Positions 7,127 through 37,381 of a stretch of DNA of 37,381 nucleotides are shown one piece after another (within the stretch, counting starts at the first letter, position 1; each line of letters starts with the position of its first letter). Both the position numbers and the translations under genes were made by a program. This DNA is from Helicobacter cetorum (GTDB taxonomy: Bacteria > Campylobacterota > Campylobacteria > Campylobacterales > BB28): NCBI GenBank assembly GCA_022729755.1, contig DZAZ01000010.1, positions 1 to 37,381 on the forward strand, written 5' to 3'. The notes under the pieces are model-generated. The model did no database searches. It worked only from the letters and a program-made list of their open reading frames with translations, and was not told the origin of the DNA.

Positions 7127-7143
7127 AGCTTAAATTTGATATA

Positions 7144-19096: not shown

Positions 19097-19108
19097 AAAA
19101 ACCTCACT

Positions 19109-19339
19109 TTATAAAATATTTTTCAAAATTTCATTAACTTTTTTATCATCAAAAGAGTGGGATTTAAGCCATTTATCAAGCTCAAATCTATCCCACCGAA
19201 GAAAGTTTTTTTCAGGAGTAAAATAGTGAATACCTTTAAAAAATACTTTATCTTTTCGTTCATTTAAAAAACTACGACTACAAGAGAGATAATCGCAAAC
19301 TTCTTTAGTAGATAAGTATCTTTTAAAAGTATTTGACAT
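19109..19339 (-). CDS. AlpA-like/MerR-type HTH protein (putative excisionase)
   Basis: YLSTKEVCDYLSCSRSFLNERKDK...YFTPEKNFLRWDRFELDKWL; directly upstream of int. Confidence 0.8.
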   Translation of the reverse strand: MSNTFKRYLSTKEVCDYLSCSRSFLNERKDKVFFKGIHYFTPEKNFLRWDRFELDKWLKSHSFDDKKVNEILKNIL

Positions 19340-19408
19340 TAGTAAGCCTTTTAAAATTGTTTTAGTGGGAAAGGAGAAAGAGAGAGCCGATAAAAGAGAG
19401 AGATTTTT

Positions 19409-20029
19409 TTATAAAGTTGCACCTAAAAAAAATTGTGCTTGTTCTAAAGCTATTTCTTCTACAATTATTAAAGAATTTACACCTTCAACTGGTTCAAAAA
19501 TTTGAATTTTTAAATAATTTCCATTACCATCACCAACTAATAATTTATTTAATCCAAAAAGAATAGTATCAGCATCATCATTATTATGGTCAATACCTAA
19601 AACAAAATCAGGTTGTCGACACAATAAAATATTAGCTTCAATTGGTAAACAAAAATAATTTGGGTCTGTTGATGTATCGTGTGTACCAATAAATGCTAAC
19701 AACTCTGTATATAAAAAAGAAGAAATAACAAAAGAAACAGAAGTAACACTATTAAAAAAAAGACTATCAATAACACCACTAGACCCACTTTGAACCTCTC
19801 CAACACTCCCATCAACACCAAGAAGCTCAAGTTCATTTTTAGTTCTAATGATTGCAGGAGTGTTTTGTGGGATTTGAGTGAGTGAAAAGTTAGTTGCCAG
19901 AGAACTATTATAGATTTTAAGCTGACCGCCGATAACACAATAAGCCTTATAAATATCATTTTTTATAGTGTCAAGTTCAAGAGCCGATAAAGGGGTGAAA
20001 GAGTTAAACCCCTCTTGTAGAGTAGCCAT
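19409..20029 (-). CDS. element protein of unknown function (206 aa)
   Basis: Open frame in the co-oriented array, ATG start; no motif recognised. Confidence 0.65.
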   Translation of the reverse strand: MATLQEGFNSFTPLSALELDTIKNDIYKAYCVIGGQLKIYNSSLATNFSLTQIPQNTPAIIRTKNELELLGVDGSVGEVQSGSSGVIDSLFFNSVTSVSFVISSFLYTELLAFIGTHDTSTDPNYFCLPIEANILLCRQPDFVLGIDHNNDDADTILFGLNKLLVGDGNGNYLKIQIFEPVEGVNSLIIVEEIALEQAQFFLGATL

Positions 20030-20031
20030 AA

Positions 20032-20712
20032 TTAAGCCTCTTCAACGACATTAATAGCAGTTGCATTAATAACACCTGTATAATCAATTCCATCTTTAGT
20101 ATATCTAAATGGCTGACCAAGATAGCCAGTTGTAAAGTCAAGTTGAGCCACATCAACACCATCAACTCTAATATTTGCACTTTCATTATCTGTAATTGGG
20201 TCTTCATTTAAATTTAAATTATTAAATTCAACAGAACCAGCTCCAGCAAGTGAAACATTATCAACAGCACTATCACCAGCATTTAAAGTAGTGTCAAAGC
20301 TTAATGGAACTACAACACTTGAATAAATTGGATTAGTGATAATCGGAGTTTGTTGAAACAGTACAGGTTTATATTCAAACTTATAAACTTCAACATTAGT
20401 ATCATCACTTAAAATTTGATAAACATCACCACCCTCTTTTAGGGTAGTTCCAATAAATTCAATAAGAGCCGAACCTGAAGTAATTTTAGAAGAAAGTAAA
20501 GAGATAAATTCATTTCTATTTGTCCAATTTCGCCTAGAATTTGGAAAAGATAAGTTATAACCAGTTCCATTTCGGCTTACAACTCCACCCTCAAAATCGC
20601 CCCAACTAACCGAACCAAATTCAGCAACACTAACTGAAAGCTCATCGTTAAGTTCAACTAAAGCTTCATCAGTAATAACCAAATCTTCAAATTTATAACT
20701 TAAATTAGCCAT
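20032..20712 (-). CDS. element protein of unknown function (226 aa), beta-rich, structural-looking
   Basis: Tight junctions with neighbouring ORFs; Asn/Ser/Val/Gly-rich composition. Confidence 0.65.
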   Translation of the reverse strand: MANLSYKFEDLVITDEALVELNDELSVSVAEFGSVSWGDFEGGVVSRNGTGYNLSFPNSRRNWTNRNEFISLLSSKITSGSALIEFIGTTLKEGGDVYQILSDDTNVEVYKFEYKPVLFQQTPIITNPIYSSVVVPLSFDTTLNAGDSAVDNVSLAGAGSVEFNNLNLNEDPITDNESANIRVDGVDVAQLDFTTGYLGQPFRYTKDGIDYTGVINATAINVVEEA

Positions 20713-20956
20713 TATTATCCTTTATTTTAAAATAAATTTTAAGTGCGACAATATCTTCTTTAATTTTATGGATATCGTCAACTAAATTATTATAAGTCCC
20801 AAGAGAGGACTTCATAACTATAAACTGTTCCAAATAAGACTTCAAAACCTCGATATCTTGTGTATTATTTTTACTTTCAATATGAGTTTTTATAATATGA
20901 AAAATAAGAGTACCAATAATGACGAAGTCTTGAATTGATAAACTATCTATATTCAT
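20705..20956 (-). CDS. small protein with one hydrophobic segment and coiled-coil-like tail (possible holin/membrane protein)
   Basis: DFVIIGTLIFHIIKTHI hydrophobic stretch followed by charged heptad-like region; overlaps the next ORF start. Confidence 0.6.
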   Translation of the reverse strand: MNIDSLSIQDFVIIGTLIFHIIKTHIESKNNTQDIEVLKSYLEQFIVMKSSLGTYNNLVDDIHKIKEDIVALKIYFKIKDNNG

Positions 20957-21288
20957 TAAGATTTATGACCAAATAAACCAACATTGCACTGTGTCATAGT
21001 AATACCATCAACTTTAAAACCAACAAAATTATCTTGAATAGTTTTACTAGTTTCAGAACCACCAACTAAAGCAGTAAAAAAGAAATCATTACCATCTTCA
21101 TCACTCATATGAACTTTTGCATATTGAGTTGAACCCTCAATAGTATTCATCTCAAGATGTTCTTCAAAAACACCAGTTCGAGAACGAAGTAAAGTAGCAA
21201 TATCAGTTGCACCAGTTTTATCAGCAGGAACTCTCATAGTAGAAATAGAACCACCATCATATTGTTGTACAATTAAACATTCAGCCAT
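20956..21288 (-). CDS. element protein of unknown function (110 aa), possible paralogue of the adjacent 122-aa ORF
   Basis: ATDIATLLRSRTGVFEEHLEMNT aligns by eye with VDTIVTIMTGKVKVFEGTLDTN of the neighbour. Confidence 0.65.
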   Translation of the reverse strand: MAECLIVQQYDGGSISTMRVPADKTGATDIATLLRSRTGVFEEHLEMNTIEGSTQYAKVHMSDEDGNDFFFTALVGGSETSKTIQDNFVGFKVDGITMTQCNVGLFGHKS

Positions 21289-21291
21289 AAA

Positions 21292-21660
21292 TTAATCCTT
21301 TTTATCAGAAATTAAATTAACATATTCAGCAGTATCAGACATATCAAAATGACAATCTAAAGAAGCCATTTTATCTCTAACATCTTTTACAGTTTTATCA
21401 TCTTTCATATCTCTAAGAGTAAAAGAACATCGTTTATAACGACCTCCACCTAACTTTCTACCACAACTAAACACTTGAGTATTTAATTTATCAGGTTTAG
21501 CCTCTAAGGAAATATTTGTATCAAGTGTGCCTTCGAAAACCTTAACCTTACCAGTCATAATAGTAACAATAGTATCAACATCAGTATCAGTGATACCAGA
21601 AAGCATAAATTGGTTAGTTCTACCAAACTCATCTTCTTGTCTAAATAAATAATCAGCCAT
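21292..21660 (-). CDS. element protein of unknown function (122 aa), possible paralogue of the 110-aa ORF
   Basis: ATG with good Shine-Dalgarno (AAAGGATTTTTTTATG on the minus strand); similar size and motif to neighbour. Confidence 0.65.
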   Translation of the reverse strand: MADYLFRQEDEFGRTNQFMLSGITDTDVDTIVTIMTGKVKVFEGTLDTNISLEAKPDKLNTQVFSCGRKLGGGRYKRCSFTLRDMKDDKTVKDVRDKMASLDCHFDMSDTAEYVNLISDKKD

Positions 21661-21775
21661 AAAAAAATCCTTTCAAAAAATTAAGTTTAAAAAACAAAAA
21701 AAAGATATAAATATAAAAATAAATCTTACAAATCACACCTCCTAAAATAGATAAAATAAATGCAAAATGCAAAAA

Positions 21776-21825
21776 AAGCCCCCGTACCTCACAAGTGCCA
21801 AGGCACAGGAGGTACTAAGGGGCTT
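21776..21825 (-). terminator. Three-tier stem-loop with T-run on the minus strand (intrinsic terminator / attenuator)
   Basis: AAGCCCC/GGGGCTT, GTACCTC/GAGGTAC and GTGC/GCAC nested pairs; followed by TTTTTTT when read on the minus strand. Confidence 0.85.
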
Positions 21826-21839
21826 GAGAGAGGAAACAA

Positions 21840-22196
21840 TTAATAAAGTGGAGTGTTTACAGTATCAACAGCAAAGCCGTCAATCTCAAGATGATTTTTG
21901 ATAAGAGTTGGTAAATCGCTAACGGCTGAAGTTTTTACACAAGGCAGACGAAATTGGGCAGTTAAGATATTTTCTTTATTGCCATAAATGATTTTAGCCT
22001 CATTGTAATAATCAGAGGGATTATCACTTCTTTTATCAAAATCTTTATCATAAACAATCTCCATAATACGGATAATTTGCATAGTTGTAGTTGCATTAAA
22101 AAAATCTTTGCAATCTTGAAGGCTTTTAGCCTCAACTGGTTGGTCTATTGTGTGGGTTCGAGACCCTTGTTTTAGGGTGACTTTGTATAGGGGCAT
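21840..22196 (-). CDS. element protein of unknown function (118 aa)
   Basis: Open frame in co-oriented array, ATG start. Confidence 0.6.
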   Translation of the reverse strand: MPLYKVTLKQGSRTHTIDQPVEAKSLQDCKDFFNATTTMQIIRIMEIVYDKDFDKRSDNPSDYYNEAKIIYGNKENILTAQFRLPCVKTSAVSDLPTLIKNHLEIDGFAVDTVNTPLY

Positions 22197-22215
22197 TAGA
22201 AAAACCTTTAATAAA

Positions 22216-22569
22216 TTATTTTAAATTAACACACCAATAATAATCAATTTTTTCTATATGAGTACCAAAAGGAATCCAAGAAAGTTGAAGAAAATAAGAA
22301 CCTAAGGGTTGTCGAGTACCGTAAAAATAATAAAAATAAGATTTATTGTAAATCGTATAAGTGTATTTATCGAGTGGTGAAGAGGTAGTAACGGTAATAG
22401 TACCATCCTTAAAAAAATTTTCTTGATATCGAGAAACCACAACAGGCAAAGATTCAGAAATTAAAGAAAGAGAACAAGGAATTCCAAAAGAATATCCAAT
22501 CCTATTAAAATCATCATCTAAACACTCCCCAAAACACATAAAACCCTTATCTCCACATTTTAAAGCCAT
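22216..22569 (-). CDS. element protein of unknown function (117 aa), Cys-containing
   Basis: MALKCGDKGFMCFGECLDDDFNR...; end-to-end with next ORF. Confidence 0.6.
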   Translation of the reverse strand: MALKCGDKGFMCFGECLDDDFNRIGYSFGIPCSLSLISESLPVVVSRYQENFFKDGTITVTTSSPLDKYTYTIYNKSYFYYFYGTRQPLGSYFLQLSWIPFGTHIEKIDYYWCVNLK

Positions 22570-22982
22570 TACTTAAACCCATTTACTTTAGTTGAACCAA
22601 GAACCACATTACCGATACTTTCACTCATACTATAAACTTTATCTAACATATCTTTATCCTCTAGTTTAGTTTCAACTCCAGAACTATCAACTTCAAAAAC
22701 TTTACTTTCTTGAGTTCCATCAGGATTAGTAACCATTTTATCAGTCAAAGTAAGCTTAGAACCAGAAATTTGGTAATTAAGCTCATTTGAAACCTTTAAA
22801 ACAAATTTTAATTTTGAACAATCTGAATTATTACATCCATAAATAGTTACAACAGCACGATAGATAAAATCCAGTTTATCGGCACATTCTAATGTAGTTA
22901 TATCTTCAGAAGCTCCACAATAATCAGGTAAAAGTTCGTTTAGCTTTTCAAGAATATAAGCTAATTTTTGTTCATCATTCAC
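22569..22982 (-). CDS. element protein of unknown function (137 aa), Cys-containing
   Basis: LLPDYCGASEDITTLECADKL...YGCNNSDCSK; overlaps next ORF. Confidence 0.6.
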   Translation of the reverse strand: MNDEQKLAYILEKLNELLPDYCGASEDITTLECADKLDFIYRAVVTIYGCNNSDCSKLKFVLKVSNELNYQISGSKLTLTDKMVTNPDGTQESKVFEVDSSGVETKLEDKDMLDKVYSMSESIGNVVLGSTKVNGFK

Positions 22983-23557
22983 GGCTTAAAATTCCCAAAA
23001 TGATTATGAAGTCCAAGCATAATTTTGCTGAAACTATGCAAATTACCGTCAGTATCTTCCACGGCAAACCATTCTGAAATTTTGTTTAAATCATCTTTAT
23101 CGCGAGTTGAAAATTTATTTATCAAATCTGTATCGCTATCGCTAAAGCTACCACTTATGAGTTTTGCTAGAAATTTCAAAGCTTCGTTATCATCGCTTTT
23201 TAGTAGGGTTTCAAGCCATAGTGTGAGTTCAGAAACACTTTTATTTGAAGCTCCAAGAGTATTAAAGCTATCAGTTTCACTCACATCACCGCTTGATAAT
23301 TGAGTAATTGCTGAATAAAAAGCCTTTGAAATGCCATCACTATAAACTTTTTGTTTTAGCATTTGGTTTAAAATATAAACTATTTTTTGCAACGAATTGC
23401 TATCCACACGATTTAAAACATTATTTTCTATCTCATATTGTTGTTTAAATTTTAGATTAATTTCGTGTGCTTTGGCTTGTTTGCCTAAAGATTTATTTGC
23501 ATTGGATTGCAAAATAAAAAATGTTTTAAAAATTCCTTGAATACCTTTAGACATCAA
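22979..23557 (-). CDS. element protein of unknown function (192 aa), predicted helical
   Basis: Open frame with SD-like AAGGATTTTT upstream; Leu/Lys/Ser-rich helical composition. Confidence 0.6.
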   Translation of the reverse strand: MMSKGIQGIFKTFFILQSNANKSLGKQAKAHEINLKFKQQYEIENNVLNRVDSNSLQKIVYILNQMLKQKVYSDGISKAFYSAITQLSSGDVSETDSFNTLGASNKSVSELTLWLETLLKSDDNEALKFLAKLISGSFSDSDTDLINKFSTRDKDDLNKISEWFAVEDTDGNLHSFSKIMLGLHNHFGNFKP

Positions 23558-23564
23558 AAATCCT

Positions 23565-23825
23565 TTATTGAATTAAGCCATTAAAAGCCAAAAGTGTATC
23601 AATACTAAAAGGGTCATTTGCAAGTTGGTCAACAAATGCACCAAAATCGGCTTTTAAAGCTGTAATTTCAGCAAGAGTTGAAACTCCAAAAGTTGTACAA
23701 TCGAGTTGTTGGTCAGGTGGTAAACAAGGAATATCACCAGTGTAAGACATCGTAGCCGTATCATAGCCATCTAAAAATTGCTTGACACAAGGGTCACCCA
23801 TAACAGTATTACTAGTACAAGACAT
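23565..23825 (-). CDS. small Cys-containing protein (86 aa)
   Basis: Co-oriented ORF with SD-like sequence; MSCTSNTVMGDPCVKQF...IPCLPPDQQLDCTTFG. Confidence 0.55.
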   Translation of the reverse strand: MSCTSNTVMGDPCVKQFLDGYDTATMSYTGDIPCLPPDQQLDCTTFGVSTLAEITALKADFGAFVDQLANDPFSIDTLLAFNGLIQ

Positions 23826-23836
23826 AAAAATCCTTT

Positions 23837-25540
23837 TTATAAAGTTGAAACTAAACTTTTTAAATCATCAAAACTTGTTTCAAAACGATTAATATCATTA
23901 GAAAGTTTTTGAAGTGCAAAGAAGAAGTTAGCTTGAAGTTTACGAGGTTCATCATTTACACTATCATCTTTAAAGCTAGAAGTAGACATAGATTGAGGAT
24001 TATTCATAAAATTATAATAATCTTCAATCTCTTCAATTGATTCAAATATTTTTTTGAGATTATCATTTAAATCTTCCAAATACTCAAGAAAACCGAGCTT
24101 ATCGAGATTATCAAGTTTTTTAAGAGATTCTTTTGAAGAGTGAAGATGAGCTTCTATATTTTCAAGTTCATCTAAATATTCCAAAGAGCTAAGTTTTGCT
24201 AAACTTTCCAAATTTTTAGAGTACTCTTTAATATCAGCTAAGTTAGACAAACTTTCAAGATTAGATAAATCTTCAAGATTAGACAATTTATCGAGTTTAG
24301 TAACTATATCTGCCAAATTATCACGAGATGAAGCCAAAATTTGGTTAGTTTGAGTTAAATCAACATTAAACTCAACATCACCACCACTTGAAAAATCTAA
24401 ACTAATACTTTTACTATCAATTGCACTTTTAATATTATCAAGACCAGTTCGCAAAGAAGCAATATCAGGCGAAACTGTAACATCAACAGTTTCGATATCT
24501 ACATCAACACTTGAAACAGTAATGCTATTAGTTTGGCTAAGTGTATCAACATCTAAAGTTGCATTAGTTATATCCACATCAACAGTTGAAATAGTCATAG
24601 TGTTAGTTTGGCTAAGTGTATCAACATCCAAAGTTGCATTAGTTATATCCACATCAACGGTTGAAATAGTCATAGTGTTAGTTTGGCTAAGTGTATCAAC
24701 ATCCAAAGTTGCATTAGTTATATCTACATCAACAGTTGCAATACTCATAGTGTTAGTTTGGCTAAGTGTTCCAACATCCAAAGTTGCATTAGTTATATCC
24801 AAATCAAAATTTGAAACTGTAATAGTGTTAGTTTGGTTTAAAGTTGTAACATCAAGTGTTGCATTAGTGATATCAATATCATTAGTTTGATTAAGTGTAT
24901 CAACATCTAAAGTTGCATTAGTTATATCAATTTCAACATTAGAAATAGCAACAGTATTATTTATATTTTGAAAGTTTATTGAGTTATTTTGATTTGCTAT
25001 ATCAATATCAGCGTGAGAAACAGTTACATTTTCAATTGTGACATTAGTCGAAGCACTAGCAACACCATCAATGGCAACTTGTATATCATAAAGTTGAGTA
25101 GCTTGAATTGTAAAAAAGTCTACAAACATTCCGTGCAATTCATAAAGTTGAACAGCTTGAGTAGTAGAACTCTCATAATTTGAAAGTGCAACAGCTTGTG
25201 CAGATGCGGAAACAATTTCAGCGTGATATTGAACAGAATCAGAAATAATCGATAATTTTTCAGTAACTAACTTAAGAGCATCAACAATACTTTGAGAAGC
25301 CCTTAAAATATCTTTTGAAAGAGGTGAATCTGTGCTACTAATATGATTATTTATAGTATTATTGATAGTACCACTATTAGAAACAACATTATTAACATTA
25401 GCATCTTTAGCATTTAAAAATTCAGTTTTTTTATCTCGAACTTCATCACTAAAACTAACAAGAGTAAGTGTGTTACCAACAGTATAATTAGCAGGAATAG
25501 GATTAGTATGAGATGAATTTGGAGGAGTAGGTGCACCCAT
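23837..25540 (-). CDS. large repeat protein (567 aa), putative fibre/adhesin-like structural protein
   Basis: Multiple ~25-aa repeats VDVDITNATLDVDTLSQTNTMTIST, then Leu/Glu/Ser-rich coiled-coil-like C-terminal region (LSNLEDLSNLESLSNLADIKEY). Confidence 0.75.
   Translation of the reverse strand: MGAPTPPNSSHTNPIPANYTVGNTLTLVSFSDEVRDKKTEFLNAKDANVNNVVSNSGTINNTINNHISSTDSPLSKDILRASQSIVDALKLVTEKLSIISDSVQYHAEIVSASAQAVALSNYESSTTQAVQLYELHGMFVDFFTIQATQLYDIQVAIDGVASASTNVTIENVTVSHADIDIANQNNSINFQNINNTVAISNVEIDITNATLDVDTLNQTNDIDITNATLDVTTLNQTNTITVSNFDLDITNATLDVGTLSQTNTMSIATVDVDITNATLDVDTLSQTNTMTISTVDVDITNATLDVDTLSQTNTMTISTVDVDITNATLDVDTLSQTNSITVSSVDVDIETVDVTVSPDIASLRTGLDNIKSAIDSKSISLDFSSGGDVEFNVDLTQTNQILASSRDNLADIVTKLDKLSNLEDLSNLESLSNLADIKEYSKNLESLAKLSSLEYLDELENIEAHLHSSKESLKKLDNLDKLGFLEYLEDLNDNLKKIFESIEEIEDYYNFMNNPQSMSTSSFKDDSVNDEPRKLQANFFFALQKLSNDINRFETSFDDLKSLVSTL
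24530..24910 (-). repeat. 75-bp tandem repeat within the 567-aa ORF (about five recognisable units, outer ones diverged)
   Basis: Period gtgttagtttggctaagtgtatcaacatccaaagttgcattagttatatccacatcaacggttgaaatagtcata; central copies nearly identical. Confidence 0.9.
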
Positions 25541-25549
25541 TTTAAAACC

Positions 25550-26254
25550 TTAATTATTGGATTTAATCAAATAAGGTGAAATTTCTCCTATAAAAGATAA
25601 AAAGTTTCTTGAATTAATATAAATTTTGCCTTTACCACTTATCTTTATCATCAAAAATTCACCACTAGCAAAAGAGGTAAAAATCTTTGAAAATAAATTT
25701 TTACCTTTAGATATAACAACTTCATAATGCAGAGCATCATCCCAAGCAACAAGATGATAATTATCAACTATAATCTCTTCATTATCCAAATCTATATCAA
25801 TTAATGAACCAAAACCACTAATAGCTAAACTTCCAACTCCTTTGAAATGCTGAACAAAAAAACCACCATTACCAGCAAATAAAGAGTTAAGAATATTATT
25901 TTGAAATTTAGTGTCTATTTTAATACCACCATCACAAGCCACAAAACAACCATCATTTACATAAAATCCGTTATTTTTTAAATTCAAAATAGCAATATCT
26001 CCTATTAATTTAGGTGCTAAAATAACAGAACTATTTGCTTTATTTGATTGAAATTTTTGTAAAAAAATAGACTCTTCATTTAAAAATCGTCTAGCAATAG
26101 ATTGTAAAAAACCACCTTGTAACTCTGAAGACATATCAATATTAGAACTCATTGCAACCATCGAGTCAGATTCGGCATAAATAAAATCATCTTTTGTTTC
26201 AAATTGAACTCTTAAAAATGGTTCTGTATCATTAATTTTTTCAAAAATAGTCAT
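25550..26254 (-). CDS. AIM24/TIGR00266-like protein
   Basis: FLQKFQSNKANSSVILAPKLIGDIAILNL...FVQHFKGVGSLAISGFGSLIDIDLDNEEIIVDNYHLVAWDDALHYEV...GEFLMIKISGKGKIYINSRN pattern. Confidence 0.75.
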   Translation of the reverse strand: MTIFEKINDTEPFLRVQFETKDDFIYAESDSMVAMSSNIDMSSELQGGFLQSIARRFLNEESIFLQKFQSNKANSSVILAPKLIGDIAILNLKNNGFYVNDGCFVACDGGIKIDTKFQNNILNSLFAGNGGFFVQHFKGVGSLAISGFGSLIDIDLDNEEIIVDNYHLVAWDDALHYEVVISKGKNLFSKIFTSFASGEFLMIKISGKGKIYINSRNFLSFIGEISPYLIKSNN

Positions 26255-26312
26255 AATAAAACTCCTTAAAATTTTAGGAAGTTTATTAAAATAAAAATAA
26301 AAAATAAAATAT

Positions 26313-26735
26313 TTAAAAACTATCTCTCAACATAGCCAAAGAAAGGCTATCGCAACGAGCTTTTACTTGAAAGCACCATTTAGAATTTTCCATCTGAAAA
26401 GAAGCCTCTTTAAAATCCAAATCTTTAACAGCTAAAATTAACTTTTTAAACTTAAGGAAATTTGGTTTTCCGAGGTTAAAAATCATATCGATTAAGACTT
26501 CTTGACGAACATCTGAAAGTTTTTCAAAGAGTTCTGAACCAAAAATATCGATTAATTCAGCTACACAGCGATTTATGTCGTTTTTAGCTAAATAATAAGC
26601 TTCATCTTTAGACAAACCTAAATCTTGTATATTGCGACCAATGCCGATAGTTAAGCGACCTGAAGGGCAAACATAAGGTTTTAATTCTAAACCCTCGTGT
26701 TTTACTAAATTAGAAAGTAATCTATCTAAATTCAT
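26313..26735 (-). CDS. phage-type lysozyme (GH24 muramidase/endolysin)
   Basis: KHEGLELKPYVCPSGRLTIGIGRNI (catalytic-region pattern), RQEVLIDMIFNLGKPNFLKFKKL. Confidence 0.92.
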   Translation of the reverse strand: MNLDRLLSNLVKHEGLELKPYVCPSGRLTIGIGRNIQDLGLSKDEAYYLAKNDINRCVAELIDIFGSELFEKLSDVRQEVLIDMIFNLGKPNFLKFKKLILAVKDLDFKEASFQMENSKWCFQVKARCDSLSLAMLRDSF

Positions 26736-26977
26736 ATAAGCCCCTTAATAAGTGAAATAACTTTGTCATCTACCTTATTTTCGCTATCTTTTGCCAATAT
26801 TTCTAATATTTCGATTAAAGCCTCTTTGAGTGAAATTGTAGAAAGTGGTGGAAACAAAGATTTTATTTGTGAAACAACCATATCATCAATTTTTGATGAA
26901 GTTGATGAAGCCAAAAGTGTGAGAATATGAATTGAAACAGAGTAAAGTAGTCTAGTTTGAGATTGATTTAATGTCAT
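26732..26977 (-). CDS. small phage-type protein (81 aa) with two similar segments
   Basis: SSKIDDMVVSQIKSLF and ENKVDDKVISLIKGLI; overlaps the lysozyme start. Confidence 0.6.
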   Translation of the reverse strand: MTLNQSQTRLLYSVSIHILTLLASSTSSKIDDMVVSQIKSLFPPLSTISLKEALIEILEILAKDSENKVDDKVISLIKGLI

Positions 26978-26992
26978 GTTTTTCCTTTAAAA

Positions 26993-28525
26993 TTAAAATG
27001 GATAGTCAAAATCAGGGGAAAATTCAAAATTTACAACAGGTTCAGGCTCAATAGCTTTACGATAACCAATATCATAGAGAGTAGATTTGAATTGAAGTTC
27101 TTTAGTGAAATCTCTTAAAGACAAAGCCTCTTCATAATAATCAAACTTAGAATTAACATCGTGAAAATGCTCACTTTTAGGACTAAGCATAGATATAAGT
27201 TGAACAAAATTTTCTCTAAAATCAACTTCTGAATAAGAGTGTTTTATAAAATCATATTCATAGTTTGAAAGTTTGCCTGTATCCAAAGCTTTAAATACAT
27301 CAAAGCTAGAAGTAAAAGCTTTTAAAAGCCCGTAAGAATGGATAGTTAAATCTTGATGTAATAAATCATTTTCTAAAGAAGCAATAAGTTCTAACATTTT
27401 ACTAGAGTCACCGTGAGCTATTTTATAAGATTGAGAGATAAACGATTTTAGCGAACGAGTTGCATAATAACTATTTGCAGTAGAGTAGTGTTTATGTCGT
27501 TTAAAGCCATCTTTGTTAAGTGTTTTACCATCCCAAGTATACAAAGAAGCCCAAAAATCAAACTCTTCATTTTTCTGAATATTTTTTCGTTTTCTTTGAA
27601 AAACTTTTTTGATAGAGTCACTTTTCAATTCACCTGACATAATTCTTAAAACTTCACTATCACTCAAATCTACATATCGAACTTTGTTCATAACATTCAA
27701 CCAAAGTTTATCAAGAATACCGAAAATAGCCTCAACTTCATCAATCAAAAAAGCAAATTCAGACTGTAGAAAAAAAAGCTTAAGGTCTTGACGGCGATAT
27801 TGAACTTCGTGCCTCCAAACGGGCAAATTATCATCATCTCTATAACCATTTAAAGCCCAAAATTCTTTAAAATAACTTTTGGTTAAATTTTGTTTTATCT
27901 CAAGAGTTTTATCATAAACTCTAAATCTAAAATCACTACGACCAAAAGTAAAGCCAGTAGTTCGATAAAATCGCATATATTGATTAAAATTTTGAGGAGA
28001 ATGGCTCTCTTTAACATAAAGAGTTTGAAATTTATAAAAATCAAGAGGTTTATAATCAATACCCCAAATATCGGTAGCTAAATCTATCCGTTGGCAAGTT
28101 GATTTAAATTCACCTAAAATTCTTTTTGCAATCTCTTTTCCATATTCATAAGCTTTGATATATCCAACATCAAATAAAAATTGACTTCGATACTCGATTT
28201 TTAACTGTGATTTGTGTTGAGTGTTTTGAAATTTTGAGTTTGAGATGTGAATAGAAACTAAATCATTGCTAAGAACATAAGAGTAACCTGAAACCCCTGC
28301 ACTGAAAATTTGAAATTTACCAAGCTCTAAAAAATTATCAATAATTTTAGACTTTACTCCAAAAGCCTCTTGTAACTTAGCAATCTCTTTTTGAGTATTT
28401 AAAAATTCTATTAAATCTTGAAACTTTGTATAATAAAACTCTTCATCTAAAGCAAAATGTGCTGAATGAAGTGTATCTACAAATTGACCTACAATTCTTA
28501 AATTAGAAGATAATAGTTCCATCAA
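26993..28525 (-). CDS. replication initiation protein, Rep_trans/RstA-like (rolling-circle type)
   Basis: RIDLATDIWGIDY, FRFRVYDKTLEIK, VWRHEVQYRRQDLK motifs typical of phage/plasmid replication initiation factors. Confidence 0.8.
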   Translation of the reverse strand: MMELLSSNLRIVGQFVDTLHSAHFALDEEFYYTKFQDLIEFLNTQKEIAKLQEAFGVKSKIIDNFLELGKFQIFSAGVSGYSYVLSNDLVSIHISNSKFQNTQHKSQLKIEYRSQFLFDVGYIKAYEYGKEIAKRILGEFKSTCQRIDLATDIWGIDYKPLDFYKFQTLYVKESHSPQNFNQYMRFYRTTGFTFGRSDFRFRVYDKTLEIKQNLTKSYFKEFWALNGYRDDDNLPVWRHEVQYRRQDLKLFFLQSEFAFLIDEVEAIFGILDKLWLNVMNKVRYVDLSDSEVLRIMSGELKSDSIKKVFQRKRKNIQKNEEFDFWASLYTWDGKTLNKDGFKRHKHYSTANSYYATRSLKSFISQSYKIAHGDSSKMLELIASLENDLLHQDLTIHSYGLLKAFTSSFDVFKALDTGKLSNYEYDFIKHSYSEVDFRENFVQLISMLSPKSEHFHDVNSKFDYYEEALSLRDFTKELQFKSTLYDIGYRKAIEPEPVVNFEFSPDFDYPF

Positions 28526-28666
28526 AATAGCCTTTTTTTATAAGATAGTAAAAAAGACAATGAACTTTAAGAAGACCCAAAATGTGGGGCTTTTCAAAGT
28601 ACACTTGTCCCGAGGAGGTAACTTGTTAAACGGGGGCGTAATCAATAAAAAGAAAGGAGAGAAAAA

Positions 28667-29128
28667 TTAAAATGAAAGTGAACCTAAAAGTTCAGCAGAA
28701 GAGTATTTTTTATCAAATTGTGGAAGATGATGAACATCTATAAAATTGTAACTGACATAAGTTGAACCAGTAGAATTTTTCTTATTTTCAAGCCTGTAAT
28801 CAAACAGATAACTTTTGCCTTTTTCAACTTTACTAAATAGATTTTTATCTTTTAATTCAATAAGACCTAAAATAGGCATTTCTACCTTTAAAATATGACT
28901 TGTACCTGAAATCTCTTTACCATCTTTATCTAAAAAGCTGTAATCTTTAGCTTCTTTATCATCGATATAACCAAAAATGCGACCAAAGTTCATAGACTTA
29001 AGAGCCTCTCTCATCTGCTCACGATGTTCAATATCAGATTGAGATAAAGTAACTTTTTCACCTGAAGTAAATTCACTATGAGTAACATTCATAGGTTGAA
29101 CTTCAACTTTTTGATTTTCTTTTGACAT
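28667..29128 (-). CDS. putative ssDNA-binding / OB-fold-like protein
   Basis: Immediately upstream of Rep; beta-rich GRIFGYIDDKEAKDYSFLDKDGKEISG...GKSYLFDYRLENKKNSTGSTYVSYNFIDV; inference. Confidence 0.45.
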   Translation of the reverse strand: MSKENQKVEVQPMNVTHSEFTSGEKVTLSQSDIEHREQMREALKSMNFGRIFGYIDDKEAKDYSFLDKDGKEISGTSHILKVEMPILGLIELKDKNLFSKVEKGKSYLFDYRLENKKNSTGSTYVSYNFIDVHHLPQFDKKYSSAELLGSLSF

Positions 29129-29172
29129 TTTCTATCCTTAATTTTGATTTATTTAGTTTATAAAAAGGAGAG

Positions 29173-29209
29173 CCGAAACAAGTTTCGGTACTTTTCCTAG
29201 CGGAAAAGT
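29173..29209 (-). other. Tandem hairpins between collar ORF and 153-aa ORF
   Basis: CCGAAAC-AA-GTTTCGG (29173-29188) and ACTTTTCC-TAGC-GGAAAAGT (29190-29209). Confidence 0.8.
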
Positions 29210-29238
29210 GAAAAGTGGGAGATGAAAAAATAATAAGT

Positions 29239-29526
29239 TTAGTGTTTTATGATAGTTAAAGGCATAACAGGATTAGAACCAGATCTTCTAAGTGATAAAT
29301 AAGAAAAAGACGCTATAGAGCCAATTCCAAGTACTGATGGCAATCTAAAAGTTTCAACTCCATCGCCACCAAAAGTAACACCAATTACACTAAAAAGTTC
29401 TTGGTAATGATTTATTAAAAGTTCTCTTCCATTACAAACTAAAAATCCATAAGGAGCAGAATTACCTAAATATGGTAAAACTGTTCCAACTGGAACATTA
29501 GTTAATTGCAATGGGAGTTCCTTCAA
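29239..29526 (-). CDS. phage tail-collar domain protein
   Basis: NVPVGTVLPYLGNSAPYGFLVCNGRELLINHYQELFSVIGVTFGGDGVETFRLPSVLG; apparent TTG start. Confidence 0.85.
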   Translation of the reverse strand: MKELPLQLTNVPVGTVLPYLGNSAPYGFLVCNGRELLINHYQELFSVIGVTFGGDGVETFRLPSVLGIGSIASFSYLSLRRSGSNPVMPLTIIKH

Positions 29527-29920
29527 CTACATCCACAGCTTGAGGGTAAATTTTATTTACAGTGTTTGCAACATCATATTTAATCGCATAACCATAATTA
29601 TCTAAAACACCCCTAGAAGTTGAAGTTTCGTACATAAATAAAATGCTAACACCATCAGTTGCAGTTCCTAAATTTCCACCGATTAATTGCATAACATTTA
29701 AAAGACTATCTCTATTAAATTCAGTTGGTGCATTTGTAGCTTTTAATTTATTATTTACATCTAAACTAAAAACAGTGTTAAGCCAAGCTCCATAAGTGTT
29801 TGCTTGATTTACATAATCAGATGGGTTTTCAACTAAAGCCGAGTTAATCGTAGTTAAATCAATTTGATTTAAACCAGTTCCATCACCTAAAATTCCATTA
29901 GAAACTATCTTCAAAGCCAT
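29498..29920 (-). CDS. element protein of unknown function (140 aa), possibly N-terminal part of a fibre with the collar ORF
   Basis: ATG with SD-like AAAAAAGGATTTTTTATG; overlaps the collar ORF by 29 bp in another frame. Confidence 0.65.
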   Translation of the reverse strand: MALKIVSNGILGDGTGLNQIDLTTINSALVENPSDYVNQANTYGAWLNTVFSLDVNNKLKATNAPTEFNRDSLLNVMQLIGGNLGTATDGVSILFMYETSTSRGVLDNYGYAIKYDVANTVNKIYPQAVDVVEGTPIAIN

Positions 29921-29996
29921 AAAAAATCCTTTTTTTTAAATTTTGAGAATTAAATCTCATAATTACCAACAAAAAAATTAGCAAATATGAAATTTA

Positions 29997-30024
29997 AGAG
30001 AGTGGTGGAACAGGTCCACTCTCT
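29997..30024. other. Hairpin with 9-bp perfect stem
   Basis: AGAGAGTGG-TGGAACAGGT-CCACTCTCT. Confidence 0.8.
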
Positions 30025-30074
30025 GTAAAACAAAAAACAAAACTAAAATTAAAAGGAGGTAAAATGAAAAAGAG

Positions 30075-30096
30075 GGGGTTTAAACTAATAAACCCC
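30075..30096. other. Hairpin with 8-bp perfect stem
   Basis: GGGGTTTA-AACTAA-TAAACCCC. Confidence 0.75.
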
Positions 30097-30175
30097 TAGA
30101 TACCAACTGTTTTAATAGTAATTGGCATTTAGGGATTTATTTAAATCTCTCTTTCAACCCTCTTAATCTAAGAAA

Positions 30176-30234
30176 ATAAACAAGTTAAAAGTGCCTATTA
30201 TGGAGGTTTAACTCTAAGGCAAAACTTGTTTATT
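30176..30234. other. Long stem-loop with 12-bp perfect outer stem
   Basis: AATAAACAAGTT ... AACTTGTTTATT flanking an inner GCC...GGC pair. Confidence 0.75.
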
Positions 30235-30513
30235 ATATTTTCTATTATGGAAAAATCAGGTCAAAAGAGAAAAAAAATATTAATTTATTTATTGCATCCT
30301 TGCTAACATTTTTCAATGCACCATACGAACAAAGCTTAAGCCTTTTGATTAAACCGTGTAAGGGATTTTTGATATTATAGTCGGGATGACCTCTTCTAGC
30401 TCATTAGTCCAAAAACATCCTAATCTTAGACTACTTACGCTTTCCAGCCCTGCTTGCTCCGAACCGACTTTGGTTAACATTACATTTTTTAGATAACACT
30501 TAATAAAGAAAAA

Positions 30514-30562
30514 AATTAAGACTTACTCAAACCCCTATTTCTAGGGGCTTTGATAAACCTTA
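30514..30562. repeat. 49-bp direct repeat copy 1 containing a CCCCTATTTCTAGGGG hairpin
   Basis: aattaagacttactcaaacccctatttctaggggctttgataaacctta; identical to 30667-30715, offset 153 bp. Confidence 0.95.
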
Positions 30563-30666
30563 GTCCAAACGAGACAGCCAATTATAAAAATCAGCAGTAG
30601 CCGCATCTACCTCTAAAAAAACTCTAAAAAAAATGTCGGACCAATAAAAAAACAAAGTCTTATAAC

Positions 30667-30715
30667 AATTAAGACTTACTCAAACCCCTATTTCTAGGGG
30701 CTTTGATAAACCTTA
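30667..30715. repeat. 49-bp direct repeat copy 2; overlaps the stop codon of the CI-like gene
   Basis: Identical to copy 1; position 30713-30715 is the reverse-strand TAA of the regulator. Confidence 0.95.
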
Positions 30716-31183
30716 ATCCTTTTGAATTTTACAATCTAGCTCAATTCCAGCTAGTTCTGAAGTTTGTTTGAGTTTTAAAAAAAGTTCCTCTAAAACAAAT
30801 CTTATTTGTTTTCGTTCAGTTTCAGTAATAGCCATTCCACCCTCACTATCTGGGTCAGTTGCTTGAATAAGTGCAGTTTGAAAGTCAGTGAATTTTTGAG
30901 AAATTTGAATAGAAAGTGCAAAAAACTTATGGATGTGAGAGTCTATTTCAAATTGATTTTTGTATTTTGCACCCTCACCACTCATAAGCCATTTAATATT
31001 TACATTTTTTCTATCAGCCAAAACCTCTAACTTTTCATAAGCAAAAACATTAATATCTTTTTTTCTAAACAAATCATAAGAAACACCAAGAAAATTAGAT
31101 AACTGTTTCATATTAGAAACTTCAGCAACTTCATAAGCCCTAATTAAAAAACTTTCAAATTTATCTTTTGAATTTTTAAACAT
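30713..31183 (-). CDS. CI-like phage repressor (HTH); ORF track extends to 31276 but the start is probably 31183
   Basis: KDKFESFLIRAYEVAEVSNMKQLSNFLGVSYDLFRKKDINVFAYEKLEVLADRKNVNIKWLMSGEGAKY; GGAG Shine-Dalgarno precedes ATGTTTAAAAAT at 31183. Confidence 0.8.
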   Translation of the reverse strand: MFKNSKDKFESFLIRAYEVAEVSNMKQLSNFLGVSYDLFRKKDINVFAYEKLEVLADRKNVNIKWLMSGEGAKYKNQFEIDSHIHKFFALSIQISQKFTDFQTALIQATDPDSEGGMAITETERKQIRFVLEELFLKLKQTSELAGIELDCKIQKD

Positions 31184-31195
31184 TTTTAACTCCAT

Positions 31196-31297
31196 AATGT
31201 AAAAATTACACATTTTTTTTACAATTAATGTAAAAAATTTAACATTTTTGATATAATTAATGTGTAAATCATACATTAAATGTAAAATTTACACATT
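31196..31297. promoter_or_regulatory. Four operator-like dyads AATGT-N9/10-ACATT between divergent regulators
   Basis: 31196-31214 AATGTAAAAATTACACATT; 31227-31246 AATGTAAAAAATTTAACATT; 31259-31277 AATGTGTAAATCATACATT; 31279-31297 AATGTAAAATTTACACATT. Confidence 0.85.
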
Positions 31298-31422
31298 TTT
31301 TCTAAAATTTTTCTATTTTTTGTTTATGAAGTACAATACTATATGATTTTACATTAAAATTTATTTAAATTAGTATAATTTTTTATAAATAAATTAGAAT
31401 TTGTAAAAAAAAGGAGTGTAAA

Positions 31423-31896
31423 ATGAAATTAGCTAACGAAAATTTTAAAAAAGTTAGAAAACAATTAAGATACAAACAAATAGATTTTGATGAAATTTTA
31501 GATTTATCAAAACAAAGGTCAAGTTCAATAGAAAATGAAAGAAGTAATGTAGATGATGAAATATTAAAAAAACTTAGAGATAAATTTAATATAAATCCTA
31601 TGTTTGTATTATTTGGAGAAGGTGAAATGTTTTTAAAGCCTGAAAATGTAACAAATGAGGAAAGTTCAGAAAAAACTGAAAAAAAAATAATAAATGGCGA
31701 TAATAATAAGATTAGTATAAATAGTGGAAGTCATTTTAAAAATTATGAGAATGCAACTATTAGCAAAAATATATTAAATAATAATCAAAACAACAAAATA
31801 AGTGAATTAATAAATATGTATGAACATATACCTCCTATTGAACAAGAAATAATATATCACGAACTTAAACTAAGATACTTAAAAGCTCAAATTTAA
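31423..31896 (+). CDS. XRE-type HTH regulator
   Basis: FKKVRKQLRYKQIDFDEILDLSKQRSSSIENERSNVDDEILKKLRDKFNINPMFVLFGEGEMFL; divergent from CI-like gene. Confidence 0.75.
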   Translation: MKLANENFKKVRKQLRYKQIDFDEILDLSKQRSSSIENERSNVDDEILKKLRDKFNINPMFVLFGEGEMFLKPENVTNEESSEKTEKKIINGDNNKISINSGSHFKNYENATISKNILNNNQNNKISELINMYEHIPPIEQEIIYHELKLRYLKAQI

Positions 31897-31897
31897 T

Positions 31898-32383
31898 TCA
31901 TTCACTAAAATTAAAAGTCTTACCATCTATAGTAATATTTACTGAATTTAAAGATTTAAGACCATCTTTAGTTCTAGATTTAAATTTAAGAATAATAACT
32001 TTAGTAATAAAAGAACCAAAATAATATGAATATATATTAAAAATTTTTAAATTTGTATAAATAAAATTTAACTCTTCAAGAGTGAAATTATTATAAAACA
32101 TTCTATTATAATCTTTTAAAATATTTTTAATATAAGTAATTTCAGATTCAGATGAAACTCCAAATTTTTCAAAAAATGAAAAATCATTATCTATGTTTTG
32201 AGAAAAAATCTCAACCAAATTATTAACTAACTCATCTCTTGTAAATGGAATAGAAACAGCTTGAGGTGGGGAAACTTCGATAGGTTCGGAGCTAGGAGAA
32301 AACTTATAAAATAGCAAAGCAACAACTAATCCTGTAACAAAAAGAAAGAAAGTAATCTCAATGTACGAAAAAGCCCTTTTCAT
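31898..32383 (-). CDS. prepilin/pseudopilin-like N-terminus membrane protein, unknown C-terminal domain
   Basis: MKRA|FSYIEITFFLFVTGLVVALLFY: short charged leader, Phe+1, Glu+5 and hydrophobic segment as in class III prepilin signals. Confidence 0.6.
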   Translation of the reverse strand: MKRAFSYIEITFFLFVTGLVVALLFYKFSPSSEPIEVSPPQAVSIPFTRDELVNNLVEIFSQNIDNDFSFFEKFGVSSESEITYIKNILKDYNRMFYNNFTLEELNFIYTNLKIFNIYSYYFGSFITKVIILKFKSRTKDGLKSLNSVNITIDGKTFNFSE

Positions 32384-32514: not shown

Positions 32515-32790
32515 TCAAACATAATCATATTGAAAAAATTTATCAAAATCATAAATATTAAATGCAGGAAAATATTTTAAAATTAAATTATCATCCCAAG
32601 AATGTTCCCTTTTTCTCTCTAAAAAATCATCAATTGTAATAGCAATTATTTTATGCTTATTTTCTCTAACCAATATATAGTCATCATCTAAATAACTGTT
32701 ATCAGATTTTTTAGGTTTGCCAACAGATAAATATAAAACATCTGAATTTTCATCATATATCAAATGAAAATCATCAATTACCATTTTCAT
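32515..32790 (-). CDS. DUF2283-like small protein (start revised from the ORF track)
   Basis: MKMVIDDFHLIYDENSDVLYLSVGKPKKSDNSYLDDDYILVRENKHKIIAITIDDF; the upstream extension in the ORF track overlaps the neighbouring gene. Confidence 0.7.
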   Translation of the reverse strand: MKMVIDDFHLIYDENSDVLYLSVGKPKKSDNSYLDDDYILVRENKHKIIAITIDDFLERKREHSWDDNLILKYFPAFNIYDFDKFFQYDYV

Positions 32791-33142
32791 ATTTACTCCA
32801 TTTAATTTTACCTTTTGAAATAGTATTATTCCCATCATAAGCAGTAATAACAATCGATTTAATGCCATTAATATCTTTAGTAGCAACAAAAGTTCCACTT
32901 AATTGAATATTACTTATAGAGTTAGCTTTAAAATACAATTCTGTATCAGATTTTCTACCCTCTCTTATAATATCAGGATTTTCAATAGTCATTTTAACAT
33001 CTTCTAAATGATTCTCCATTTCGGGATGACCCTCTATAATATGCTCCTCCCAAGTATCTTCAAATAAAGTAACTATTTTATTTCTAGGGTCTTGTATTTG
33101 TAATTTAATTTTTCTAATTGAAAAATCAGAATTATCAATCAT
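32774..33142 (-). CDS. PBECR-like (phage barnase/EndoU/colicin/RelE-like) putative nuclease
   Basis: LFEDTWEEHIIEGHPEMENHLEDVKMTIENPDIIREG pattern; overlaps the DUF2283-like gene. Confidence 0.55.
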   Translation of the reverse strand: MIDNSDFSIRKIKLQIQDPRNKIVTLFEDTWEEHIIEGHPEMENHLEDVKMTIENPDIIREGRKSDTELYFKANSISNIQLSGTFVATKDINGIKSIVITAYDGNNTISKGKIKWSKYENGN

Positions 33143-34336: not shown

Positions 34337-34702
34337 ATGAGCGAATTATTAAAACTAGGTGAAGAACAAGGTTTATTTGAGTTTACAGAAAACAAAACAC
34401 ATATTATTTATAAAACTACTCAAAACAAAGGACTAGGAAGTAAGCAAACTTGGAATGAGACAGAAGAGAAAGTAAGAGCTGAAGTTTTGACAAAATATGT
34501 TCTTGAATATGAATATCCACTTAAAAATATAAAAATTGAAGTACTAGTAAAAAGAGGTAGTGGAGATAAAGATAAAAATAGAGCAGATATTATTATTTAC
34601 ACAAATGAAAAACACACAAAAGATTATATTGTTATTGAAACAAAAACAAAAGAGTTTAAAGATATAAAAGAAGCAAAAGACCACAAGCTATATATGGAGT
34701 AA
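34337..34702 (+). pseudogene. N-terminal fragment of a type I R-M subunit (HSDR_N-like domain)
   Basis: EEKVRAEVLTKYVLEYEYPLKNIKIEVLVKRGSGDKDKNRADIIIYTNEKHTKDYIVIETKTKE then a premature stop. Confidence 0.65.
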
Positions 34703-35061: not shown

Positions 35062-35190
35062 ATGAATAATAATATTAAATCATATTTTGAAAAAATAAAT
35101 CAAAATAAAAAACAAATTCAAACCCTTGAAAACTTGCGAGATACACTCTTGCCAAAGCTTTTGAGCGGGGAAGTTAGGGTGGGGATATGA
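35062..35190 (+). pseudogene. C-terminal remnant of a type I restriction specificity subunit (HsdS)
   Basis: MNNNIKSYFEKINQNKKQIQTLENLRDTLLPKLLSGEVRVGI; typical HsdS tail. Confidence 0.8.
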
Positions 35191-36074
35191 AAATTTGCAT
35201 ATCATCAACTTTTATCGATTTAATCGAGTACAGAAATGTTGCCCTTGAAGTTTGTGATATTTTTAAAGTGCAACAACTTGTAATGGAAATAATGTTTAGC
35301 AAAACAGAAACTCCAGTTGAAGCTTCTTTGGAGCTAGTTAGGAATTGCGATATTTATATTTGTATACTTGGCAAAAGGTATGGAACGATTCCTACTGAAT
35401 ACGAGAAAAGCATTACGAATTTAGAATATGAAGAAGCTGTAAGTCTTTCTAAGCCAATTCATATTTTTATTTTAGATGATTCAAATAAAGAAGAAAAATT
35501 ACAAAAATTTATTAATGAAATTAAACAAAAACATGTTTATAGTCTTGTTAAGGATAAGCATGATTTTAGAAGTAAACTATTAAATACTTTGAGACAAAAT
35601 CATTTCAAAGAATTGAAAATAGACAGTCAGTTTTTAGTTGACTTAGAAGCTGAACATTTTAAGTTAAATGACCATGGACTTGCGATGGATTTTATTTCAA
35701 GCAAAGATACATTGGAATTACTGAATATTTTTTCAGAAAACATAAGTGGACTTCAAAATATGCATAGCTGGATTTCATCATCAAATGACAAATTGGAAGA
35801 TGATTTAAAAAAGCTTATGCAAAAAGTTGGTTGTGATAGTGAAAAATTAAATTCAGTACCATATTATGAAAATCCTTTTATTAATAGGGATTGGGAAACA
35901 ATAGCTTTAGGCTTTCCAAATTGGATGAATGCACTTAGACTATCATTTCTAAATTTACAAGTACGACTTTTAGAATATGAAGTTCAGAGGAGTGAAAGTG
36001 AAGAATATGCAGAAGCTTTAAATAAAGCAAAGGCAGAATTATTTGACTTTATAGGTGTTTCACATGTTGATTAA
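35187..36074 (+). CDS. DUF4062 domain protein
   Basis: MKICISSTFIDLIEYRNVALE...SLELVRNCDIYICILGKRYGTIP; ATGA overlap with the hsdS remnant. Confidence 0.85.
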   Translation: MKICISSTFIDLIEYRNVALEVCDIFKVQQLVMEIMFSKTETPVEASLELVRNCDIYICILGKRYGTIPTEYEKSITNLEYEEAVSLSKPIHIFILDDSNKEEKLQKFINEIKQKHVYSLVKDKHDFRSKLLNTLRQNHFKELKIDSQFLVDLEAEHFKLNDHGLAMDFISSKDTLELLNIFSENISGLQNMHSWISSSNDKLEDDLKKLMQKVGCDSEKLNSVPYYENPFINRDWETIALGFPNWMNALRLSFLNLQVRLLEYEVQRSESEEYAEALNKAKAELFDFIGVSHVD

Positions 36075-36078
36075 GGAA

Positions 36079-36132
36079 CAAATCCAAATTCTTGAAAACA
36101 CTCTTGTCAAAGCTTTTGAGTGGGGAAGTTAG
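36079..36132 (+). repeat. Second copy of the hsdS 3' tail (with internal deletion)
   Basis: caaatccaaattcttgaaaacactcttgtcaaagcttttgagtggggaagttag vs 35113-35177. Confidence 0.85.
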
Positions 36133-36138
36133 ACTTTA

Positions 36139-36756
36139 ATGCTACAAAAAATAAATATTCAAGATGAAAATAAATTAAACTTATTAAACATAAAATGGCA
36201 AGTACTATTTGAAGAAATCAACAAATCCAAACAAAATATATGTGTTATCCCAAAAAATAGTGAATTACTTAGATTGCTAATCGCAGGAGAAGATCATAGA
36301 TTTAAATTTCATAGTGGTGTGGATGTAATTGCACTAATAAGAGCTTCTTGGAAAACATTAATTTTAAAACAAAGAGAGGGTGGATCGACAATAGCTATGC
36401 AATTAGTTCGTGTTTTAACTGGTAAATATGATAAGACTATAGATAGAAAGTTAGAAGAGATGTTTTTGGCTTATAAACTTACCAAATATGTTTCAAAACA
36501 AGAAATTTTATCTTTGTATTTATCAGTTGCTTATTTTGGTTGGAATATGCATGGCATTAGTCAGGCTTGCAAAGTACTAAAATTTAATTTAAATAATTTA
36601 ACTCTCGAAGAATCAGCAAGTTTAATTGCTCGTCTAAAGTATCCAGAACCAAAAAATATTTCAGAACAGAGAAATAGTCAAATTAAAAATAGAACAAAAT
36701 ATATATTAAAACGGTACAACACATTAAAAATCAAGGATAAATATGCTTCCTTTTAA
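36139..36756 (+). CDS. GT51-family peptidoglycan transglycosylase-like protein without obvious TM anchor
   Basis: AGEDHRFKFHSGVD, GGSTIAMQLVR, DRKLEEMFLAYKLTKYVSKQEILSLYLSVAYFG: canonical GT51 motifs. Confidence 0.85.
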   Translation: MLQKINIQDENKLNLLNIKWQVLFEEINKSKQNICVIPKNSELLRLLIAGEDHRFKFHSGVDVIALIRASWKTLILKQREGGSTIAMQLVRVLTGKYDKTIDRKLEEMFLAYKLTKYVSKQEILSLYLSVAYFGWNMHGISQACKVLKFNLNNLTLEESASLIARLKYPEPKNISEQRNSQIKNRTKYILKRYNTLKIKDKYASF

Positions 36757-37228
36757 AGTTCCATCAATATTTCAAGATTTTTCAGAACAATATCCTAAAG
36801 CACATCAAATTCAAACTATTGCAAAAAATGGAGGAAATTATGCACGAAATTCAATTGCTAGATTATGGCTTTCAGAGGGAATACCTTATGCCTTTAAAGA
36901 ATCTCCTATCCTATACGAGGAAATTCGCTCATGGCTTGCAACAAGATTAGATATTGATCCAAAAGAAATAAGCATGACTGGGAGTGGTCGTATTGGACAA
37001 TCCTTGGCTCCTTCAAAATTAGGAACAGATTTTAGTGAAAAATCAGATTTAGACCTTTTTATAATATCAGAAAAATTGCTTGATAGATTACGAAATGATT
37101 TTAATAATTGGTCTTTTGATTTTGAATCTGGTCGTATTCAGCCTAAAAATGAAACAGAAGAAAAGTATTGGAAAGATAATTTATCAAGAGGACATACATA
37201 TTTCTCAAGGGGATTTTTTGATTGTTAA
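36743..37228 (+). pseudogene. nucleotidyltransferase (pol-beta-like), probably truncated by an insertion sequence
   Basis: MTGSGRIGQSLAPSKLGTDFSEKSDLDLFII (GS...DxD pattern); 14-bp overlap with GT51 ORF; frame ends at a TGTTAAG junction with transposase-like sequence. Confidence 0.7.
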
Positions 37229-37381
37229 GTCCCTTTCTATAGTCATTTAAATGCAACTCTCTTTCCGCACTTTTAAATGTCTCAATATCAACTTTAAACA
37301 ACTCTGGTTTTTCGTTAAACCAACTTTCTAAACACTCAATCGGGGTTTTACGACTTATCCCTGAATGTTTGATATGATGGT
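37223..37381 (-). mobile_element. 3' end of an IS (DDE transposase C-terminal fragment; runs off the window)
   Basis: Reverse reading: HHIKHSGISRKTPIECLESWFNEKPELFKVDIETFKSAERELHLNDYRKGLN; abrupt junction with NTase ORF. Confidence 0.6.

Follow-up and report, generated by a model that had tools for sequence, protein, structure and literature searches.

An anchor-less GT51 glycosyltransferase gene paired with a nucleotidyltransferase-like gene: a candidate horizontally moving two-gene conflict module

A stand-alone GT51 glycosyltransferase gene and an adjoining nucleotidyltransferase (NTase)-like gene form a pair that we found at eight loci in two bacterial phyla and a probable enterobacterial prophage. 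Our leading reading, held with about even confidence, is that this pair is a horizontally moving conflict module of two genes, most likely anti-phage or toxin–antitoxin-like, and not a cell-wall housekeeping operon. The DNA analyzed here (the window) is a stretch of 37,381 nucleotides that makes up an entire contig of its genome; its own copy of the pair is a case of ordinary decay, and the finding is the family that stands behind this copy. A reading made from the sequence only had called the pair an undescribed defense-type pair, and that description is supported by the eight loci, by the separate anchor-less clade formed by their GT51 proteins and by the defense-related or mobile contexts in which most of them lie.

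The GT51 gene of the window (table 1) encodes a domain (residues 41–192) that matches PF00912 with an E-value of 3.1e-39 (134.7 bits against a cut-off of 27), with both catalytic glutamates present (E51 and E107), and is by these measures a GT51 domain. The motifs quoted in the sequence-only reading are intact, and an AlphaFold2 model (pLDDT 74) matches Staphylococcus aureus MtgA and Aquifex aeolicus PBP1a with a Foldseek probability of 1.00. The same reading had described the protein as lacking both a membrane anchor and a transpeptidase domain, and both points were confirmed. No anchor was detected in a 19-residue hydropathy scan (best mean 0.96, with a range of 0.92–1.51 across the pair clade, against 2.2–3.1 for four housekeeping GT51 proteins scored identically), and Pfam finds GT51 only, with no transpeptidase domain in the 205-aa ORF, which sets the protein apart from the class A penicillin-binding proteins (PBP1A/1B/1C). 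The MtgA equivalog model TIGR02070 gives 75 bits, below its cut-off of 182.65. Since the host genome already has a GT51 gene, its sole other one, encoding an anchored 645-aa protein of the penicillin-binding type, the window gene is an extra one.

Table 1. Features of the window, with coordinates counted from its first nucleotide.
Feature	Coordinates	Strand	Basis or remark
Tyrosine integrase of phage-like element	18041-19096		phrog_1
Endolysin of phage-like element	26313-26735		
Putative Rep-like protein of phage-like element	26993-28525		
HsdR N-terminal domain fragment	34337..34702	+	PF13588 E 2.6e-10
HsdS 3'-tail-like repeat, copy 1	35106..35177	+	Direct repeats D1/D2; HsdS-tail reading by eye
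DUF4062 gene, 295 aa, direct upstream neighbor of the pair	35187..36074	+	PF13271 E 2.8e-21
HsdS 3'-tail-like repeat, copy 2, immediately 5' of the GT51 gene	36072..36132	+	Direct repeats D1/D2
GT51 (PF00912) glycosyltransferase gene, stand-alone, TM-less, intact, 205 aa	36139..36756	+	Pfam, motifs, fold model
GT51 motif 1, EDHRFKFHSGVD, catalytic Glu = residue 51	36289..36324	+	ED..R...H.G.D invariant in pair clade
GT51 motif 2, GGSTIAMQLVR	36379..36411	+	Alignment of pair GT51s
GT51 motif 3, RKLEE, second catalytic Glu = residue 107	36445..36459	+	Alignment of pair GT51s
LKYPEP motif, clade-specific	36634..36651	+	LKYPxP in 7/7 pair GT51s, 0/12 other GT51s
Overlap of GT51 and NTase-like genes, 14 bp	36743..36756	+	Identical overlap in L014, L004, L003
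NTase-like gene, truncated, 161 aa	36743..37228	+	Homologues 219-247 aa; last codons from ~37221 belong to repeated element
End of multi-copy repeated element interrupting the NTase-like gene, runs off contig	37221..37381	-	14 matches in genome; boundary at TTGTTAAGTCC

In a maximum-likelihood tree built from 19 GT51 domains, a branch with 100/100 support separates the seven pair GT51s from the other 12, which are those of Escherichia coli MtgA, PbpC and MrcB, the PBP of the window genome, three Smithella proteins and five plasmid-borne PBP-type proteins that served as outgroup. E51/D52 and E107 are invariant in all seven, as is LKYPxP, and the asparagine of the usual YLN motif is lost, so that activity of these proteins on lipid II is not guaranteed. 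They are 185–229 aa long, of which the domain takes up ~150, and carry no added ligand-binding domain. The pair GT51s form a clade of their own that has no anchor and keeps the catalytic site intact; neither a cryptic anchor nor a housekeeping grouping emerged from the hydropathy scan and the tree, and identity with a housekeeping GT51 or MtgA was rejected on the tree, the TIGR02070 cut-off and the missing anchor.

The claim of a second ORF with a GS...SDLDLF motif and a 14-bp overlap also holds. Its GS (residues 80–81) and SDLD (101–104) are intact, and GS...SDxD is invariant in an alignment of nine NTase-like sequences. The further claim that the product is a pol-beta nucleotidyltransferase agrees with the motif, but the ORF is incomplete, no member reaches the cut-off of a Pfam NTase model (the closest are NTP_transf_2 with E 0.013 and Polbeta with E 0.0074), an AlphaFold2 model from a three-row alignment is poor (pLDDT 54) and has no significant fold match, a PDB sequence search returned nothing significant, and no residue could be assigned as the third catalytic acid that a pol-beta NTase should have. 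The pol-beta label is a weak and putative one, drawn from the motif and the sub-threshold Pfam matches. In the window, the gene has lost its last ~58 of ~219 residues to a repeated element entering at ~37221, whose reverse-strand coding end resembles a transposase C-terminus and inside which the contig stops; the lost C-terminus was sought elsewhere in the host genome and was not found. Because this element cuts the NTase-like gene, the window copy of the pair is probably dead, and the notion of a functional copy at this site was not borne out.

Seven further loci rule out that the pair is unique to the window. Two lie in genomes of another family within the same order as the window genome, one intact (L014, genome G235) and one frameshifted (L016, G056); the others are on an Aliarcobacter cryaerophilus plasmid (L004), a Smithella MAG contig (L003), a viral contig with a P2-like prophage (L018) and in two genomes recovered by a search around Smithella (L035 in G642 and L036 in G472). 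In G472, both genes are only 27–32% identical to the reference, still adjacent and in the same order. The exact 14-bp overlap occurs in four loci, including the window, and in the remainder the two genes lie close together or overlap more extensively. Between the window and G235, the GT51 proteins are 80% and the NTase-like proteins 84% identical, against 54% for InfB of the same two genomes, which indicates that the pair moved horizontally between families; dN/dS values for this comparison (0.10 for the GT51 gene and 0.14 for the NTase-like gene) indicate purifying selection. The GC content of the pair is 37% against 52% in its surroundings in L018, and 25% against 56% in L036. The genes of the pair thus travel horizontally, as a unit. 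The pair is rare, occurring in 3 of the 397 sampled genomes of the window's phylum and, in its GT51-bearing form, in 3 of the 395 sampled from the other phylum, and searches of phage and E. coli genome collections returned no matches. Plasmid GT51 matches in Enterococcus, Paenibacillus, Anoxybacillus, Leptospira and Riemerella were rejected as pairs, being longer, PBP-type proteins with no NTase neighbor.

Most loci have neighborhoods or carriers of a defense or mobile kind, in what is a small sample read locus by locus. The A. cryaerophilus plasmid carries the pair in a defense island together with a Septu-like PtuA ATPase and HNH gene, bSEFIR (E 1e-83), PDC-S21, a PLD protein and DUF4365. 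The neighbors in G642 are type III-A cas10/csm1, cas6, a DUF4011 Hhe/ProA-like helicase and a Mrr-like nuclease, along with a PIN protein and a HEPN-MNT pair (both assigned by eye). In G235, the pair is followed by RhuM, the PADLOC candidate PDC-S05 (E 1e-153). The Smithella contig encodes an integron integrase (TIGR02249, 445 bits, cut-off 265) and has two attC-like hairpins near the cassette ends (z -5.2 and only -1.7), and the term integron rests on these two features, a scan of the contig for the strict attC pattern having found nothing. On the viral contig, the pair sits at the prophage end, between the tail genes and chromosomal mug, and not in gpA–gpQ, the hotspot described for P2-like phages (PMC9122126). 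No defense neighbors are evident in G472. In the window, the pair lies downstream of the HsdR fragment, the HsdS-tail-like repeats and the DUF4062 gene, which the sequence-only reading had taken for restriction–modification (R-M) and DUF4062 remnants; the HsdR fragment is real and DUF4062 is present, but the latter is an open gene of 295 aa with no obvious sign of being a remnant.

Some further observations concern the surroundings of the pair. The DUF4062 gene of the window is flanked by both HsdS-tail-like repeats, as if cargo had accumulated serially behind hsdS. An integrated phage-like element with few family matches occupies positions 18041-31900 and also encodes a 567-aa protein with long 'ITNATLDVDTLSQTN' repeats, and two small overlapping ORFs on the reverse strand (32515-33142) resemble another small two-gene unit. 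The Smithella contig has identical 220-nt palindrome-rich repeats at 1651-1870 and 4566-4785, the second just 5' of the pair. On the viral contig, a 179-aa ORF without a family assignment (6644-7183) lies between the tail genes and the pair and is a possible third cargo gene.

Profile searches with the NTase-like protein found relatives, ~19–24% identical along their length, that sit beside a DUF262 protein instead of a GT51. There are four such loci (L037, L038, L042 and L059), belonging to G734, G617, a 6.2-kb Cronobacter plasmid and G351. Their DUF262 partners match PADLOC NsnA (E 3e-38 to 4e-21), which we take to be a component of Menshen, and PD-T4-2_A. PD-T4-2 protects E. coli, in its native strain, against T4 (PMC9519451), and DUF262 domains are also found in Menshen and Dazbog (PMC10952713). 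All 12 NTase loci (3' remnants excluded) have either a GT51 or a DUF262 partner; matches in G467 and G093 were dismissed as a 3' remnant and a chance match. The sister NTases also match the PADLOC 'oligonucleotide-cyclase' profile weakly (E 0.0025 and 0.0067). As to setting, the NTase–DUF262 unit of G351 (L059, 4165-10210) has a Rep-like gene and a phrog_1 integrase gene within a few genes of it, an arrangement similar to the window's integrase/Rep element, and that of L038 (8121-9754) is flanked by argD-like and argF-like genes, where defense-type cargo would be unusual.

If control lies with the NTase and action with its partner, the NTase would be expected to stay constant while the partner varies, as it does across these loci, and we infer that the NTase-like protein is a shared controller (a sensor or an antitoxin) and its partner a swappable effector. 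A bolder proposal, which we advance tentatively, as possible rather than probable, is that the GT51 belongs to a type of immune effector not described before: it would polymerize lipid II from the cytosol and abort infection through its action on peptidoglycan precursors at the inner leaflet, with NTase-like controllers governing DUF262 proteins elsewhere in a modular family of interchangeable effectors. Lipid II, the substrate of GT51 enzymes, is synthesized at the inner leaflet and as a rule polymerized outside; being unanchored and unexported, the pair GT51 could meet it only inside. In the mechanism that we consider the likeliest, the GT51, which lacks a signal peptide and an anchor, would remain cytosolic and reach lipid II of the inner leaflet, and the NTase-like partner would keep it silent by binding or by nucleotidylylation. 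Infection would then release or activate the GT51, which may polymerize lipid II, or sequester it, at the wrong face of the membrane, and the consumption of lipid II would starve wall synthesis, so that the infected cell stops growing or dies. To our knowledge, the targets of known immune effectors are nucleic acids, NAD, membranes, translation or proteins. Should the GT51 prove to be an effector, the lipid II pool would join the targets of bacterial self-sacrifice, and lipid II flipping could be studied with a natural polymerase that works at the inner leaflet. The link to NTase–DUF262 pairs offers a way to search for a broader modular family that current defense databases miss.

Among the alternatives, the one that fares best, though we consider it rather unlikely, is a plain toxin–antitoxin or addiction module for the upkeep of mobile elements, with no anti-phage role, in which the GT51 would be a toxin acting on lipid II and the NTase-like protein its antitoxin. 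NTase-like antitoxins are known from MNT-HEPN pairs, and such a module would suit the small size of the unit, the usual overlap of its two genes and its presence on a plasmid, an integron contig and a prophage. Several copies, however, lie inside dense defense islands, and chromosomal copies decay, one being frameshifted (G056) and the other, in the window, having a broken controller beside an intact GT51 gene; since the window GT51 survives without its antitoxin, strong constitutive GT51 toxicity is argued against.

We find it improbable that the module works in the manner of CBASS, with the NTase producing a nucleotide signal upon infection that turns on the GT51 effector. The GS...SDxD motif and the weak cyclase match of the sister NTases would agree with this, but no CBASS family matches the GT51-linked NTases, the GT51 proteins have no ligand-binding domain besides the GT51 domain, the third catalytic acid was not found and no ancillary CBASS genes were seen. 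The sequence-only proposal of nucleotide signaling or nucleotidylylation is left unsupported by the unplaced acid and by a GT51 that has no ligand-sensing domain.

More doubtful again is an accessory role in the cell wall or in antibiotic resistance, whereby the GT51 would offer a bypass around, or a decoy for, antibiotics directed at lipid II and the NTase would inactivate a drug in the manner of ANT enzymes. ANT enzymes share the same core motif, and integrons and plasmids carry resistance genes too. Against this, the loci read have defense genes and no resistance genes beside the pair, a GT51 with no anchor or signal peptide is unlikely to reach the periplasm, and the sister NTases are paired with DUF262 proteins of the defense type. 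Finally, an insignificant, degenerate class A PBP or MtgA fragment beside an unrelated ORF, as the truncated NTase, the cut contig and the R-M fragments of the region might suggest, is very improbable; it may hold for the single window copy but is refuted for the family by a pair order kept down to about 27–32% identity, by purifying selection and by a separate GT51 clade whose window member falls far short of the MtgA cut-off (75 bits vs 182.65).

With regard to what is already known, PADLOC, its CBASS families included, has no match for either window gene or for the NTases of L018, L035 and L036, and no NCBIfam model names a GT51–NTase pair. In the literature covered, outside which most subscription journals and preprints fell, we found no GT51–NTase defense pair, and within the same incomplete coverage no description of an immune effector with a peptidoglycan polymerase fold. 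The conflict module that we favor resembles several known systems in part. The pair GT51 shares with MtgA and the GT domain of class A PBPs the domain and fold, both catalytic glutamates and five motif regions; unlike them, it has no anchor and no transpeptidase, has lost the YLN asparagine and gained LKYPxP, forms a separate clade and, in the loci found, always has an NTase-like partner. From CBASS, where an NTase likewise adjoins a possible cell-killing effector, the pair differs in having no CD-NTase match above noise, no sensor domain in the effector and no ancillary genes. The relation to Menshen (NsnA) and PD-T4-2 runs through the sister NTase lineage, whose DUF262 partners match NsnA and PD-T4-2_A, whereas the window and its seven relatives have a GT51 and no DUF262 beside the pair. 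MNT-HEPN and related NTase toxin–antitoxin systems are likewise small, adjacent two-gene units on mobile DNA with a GS...DxD NTase-like member; here, however, the partner is a GT51 and not a HEPN RNase, and the NTase, of about 219 aa, is extended at both its N and C termini and reaches the cut-off of no MNT family. Two-gene conflict modules that join an NTase to a partner are known as a kind, and it is the GT51 partner that appears to be new.
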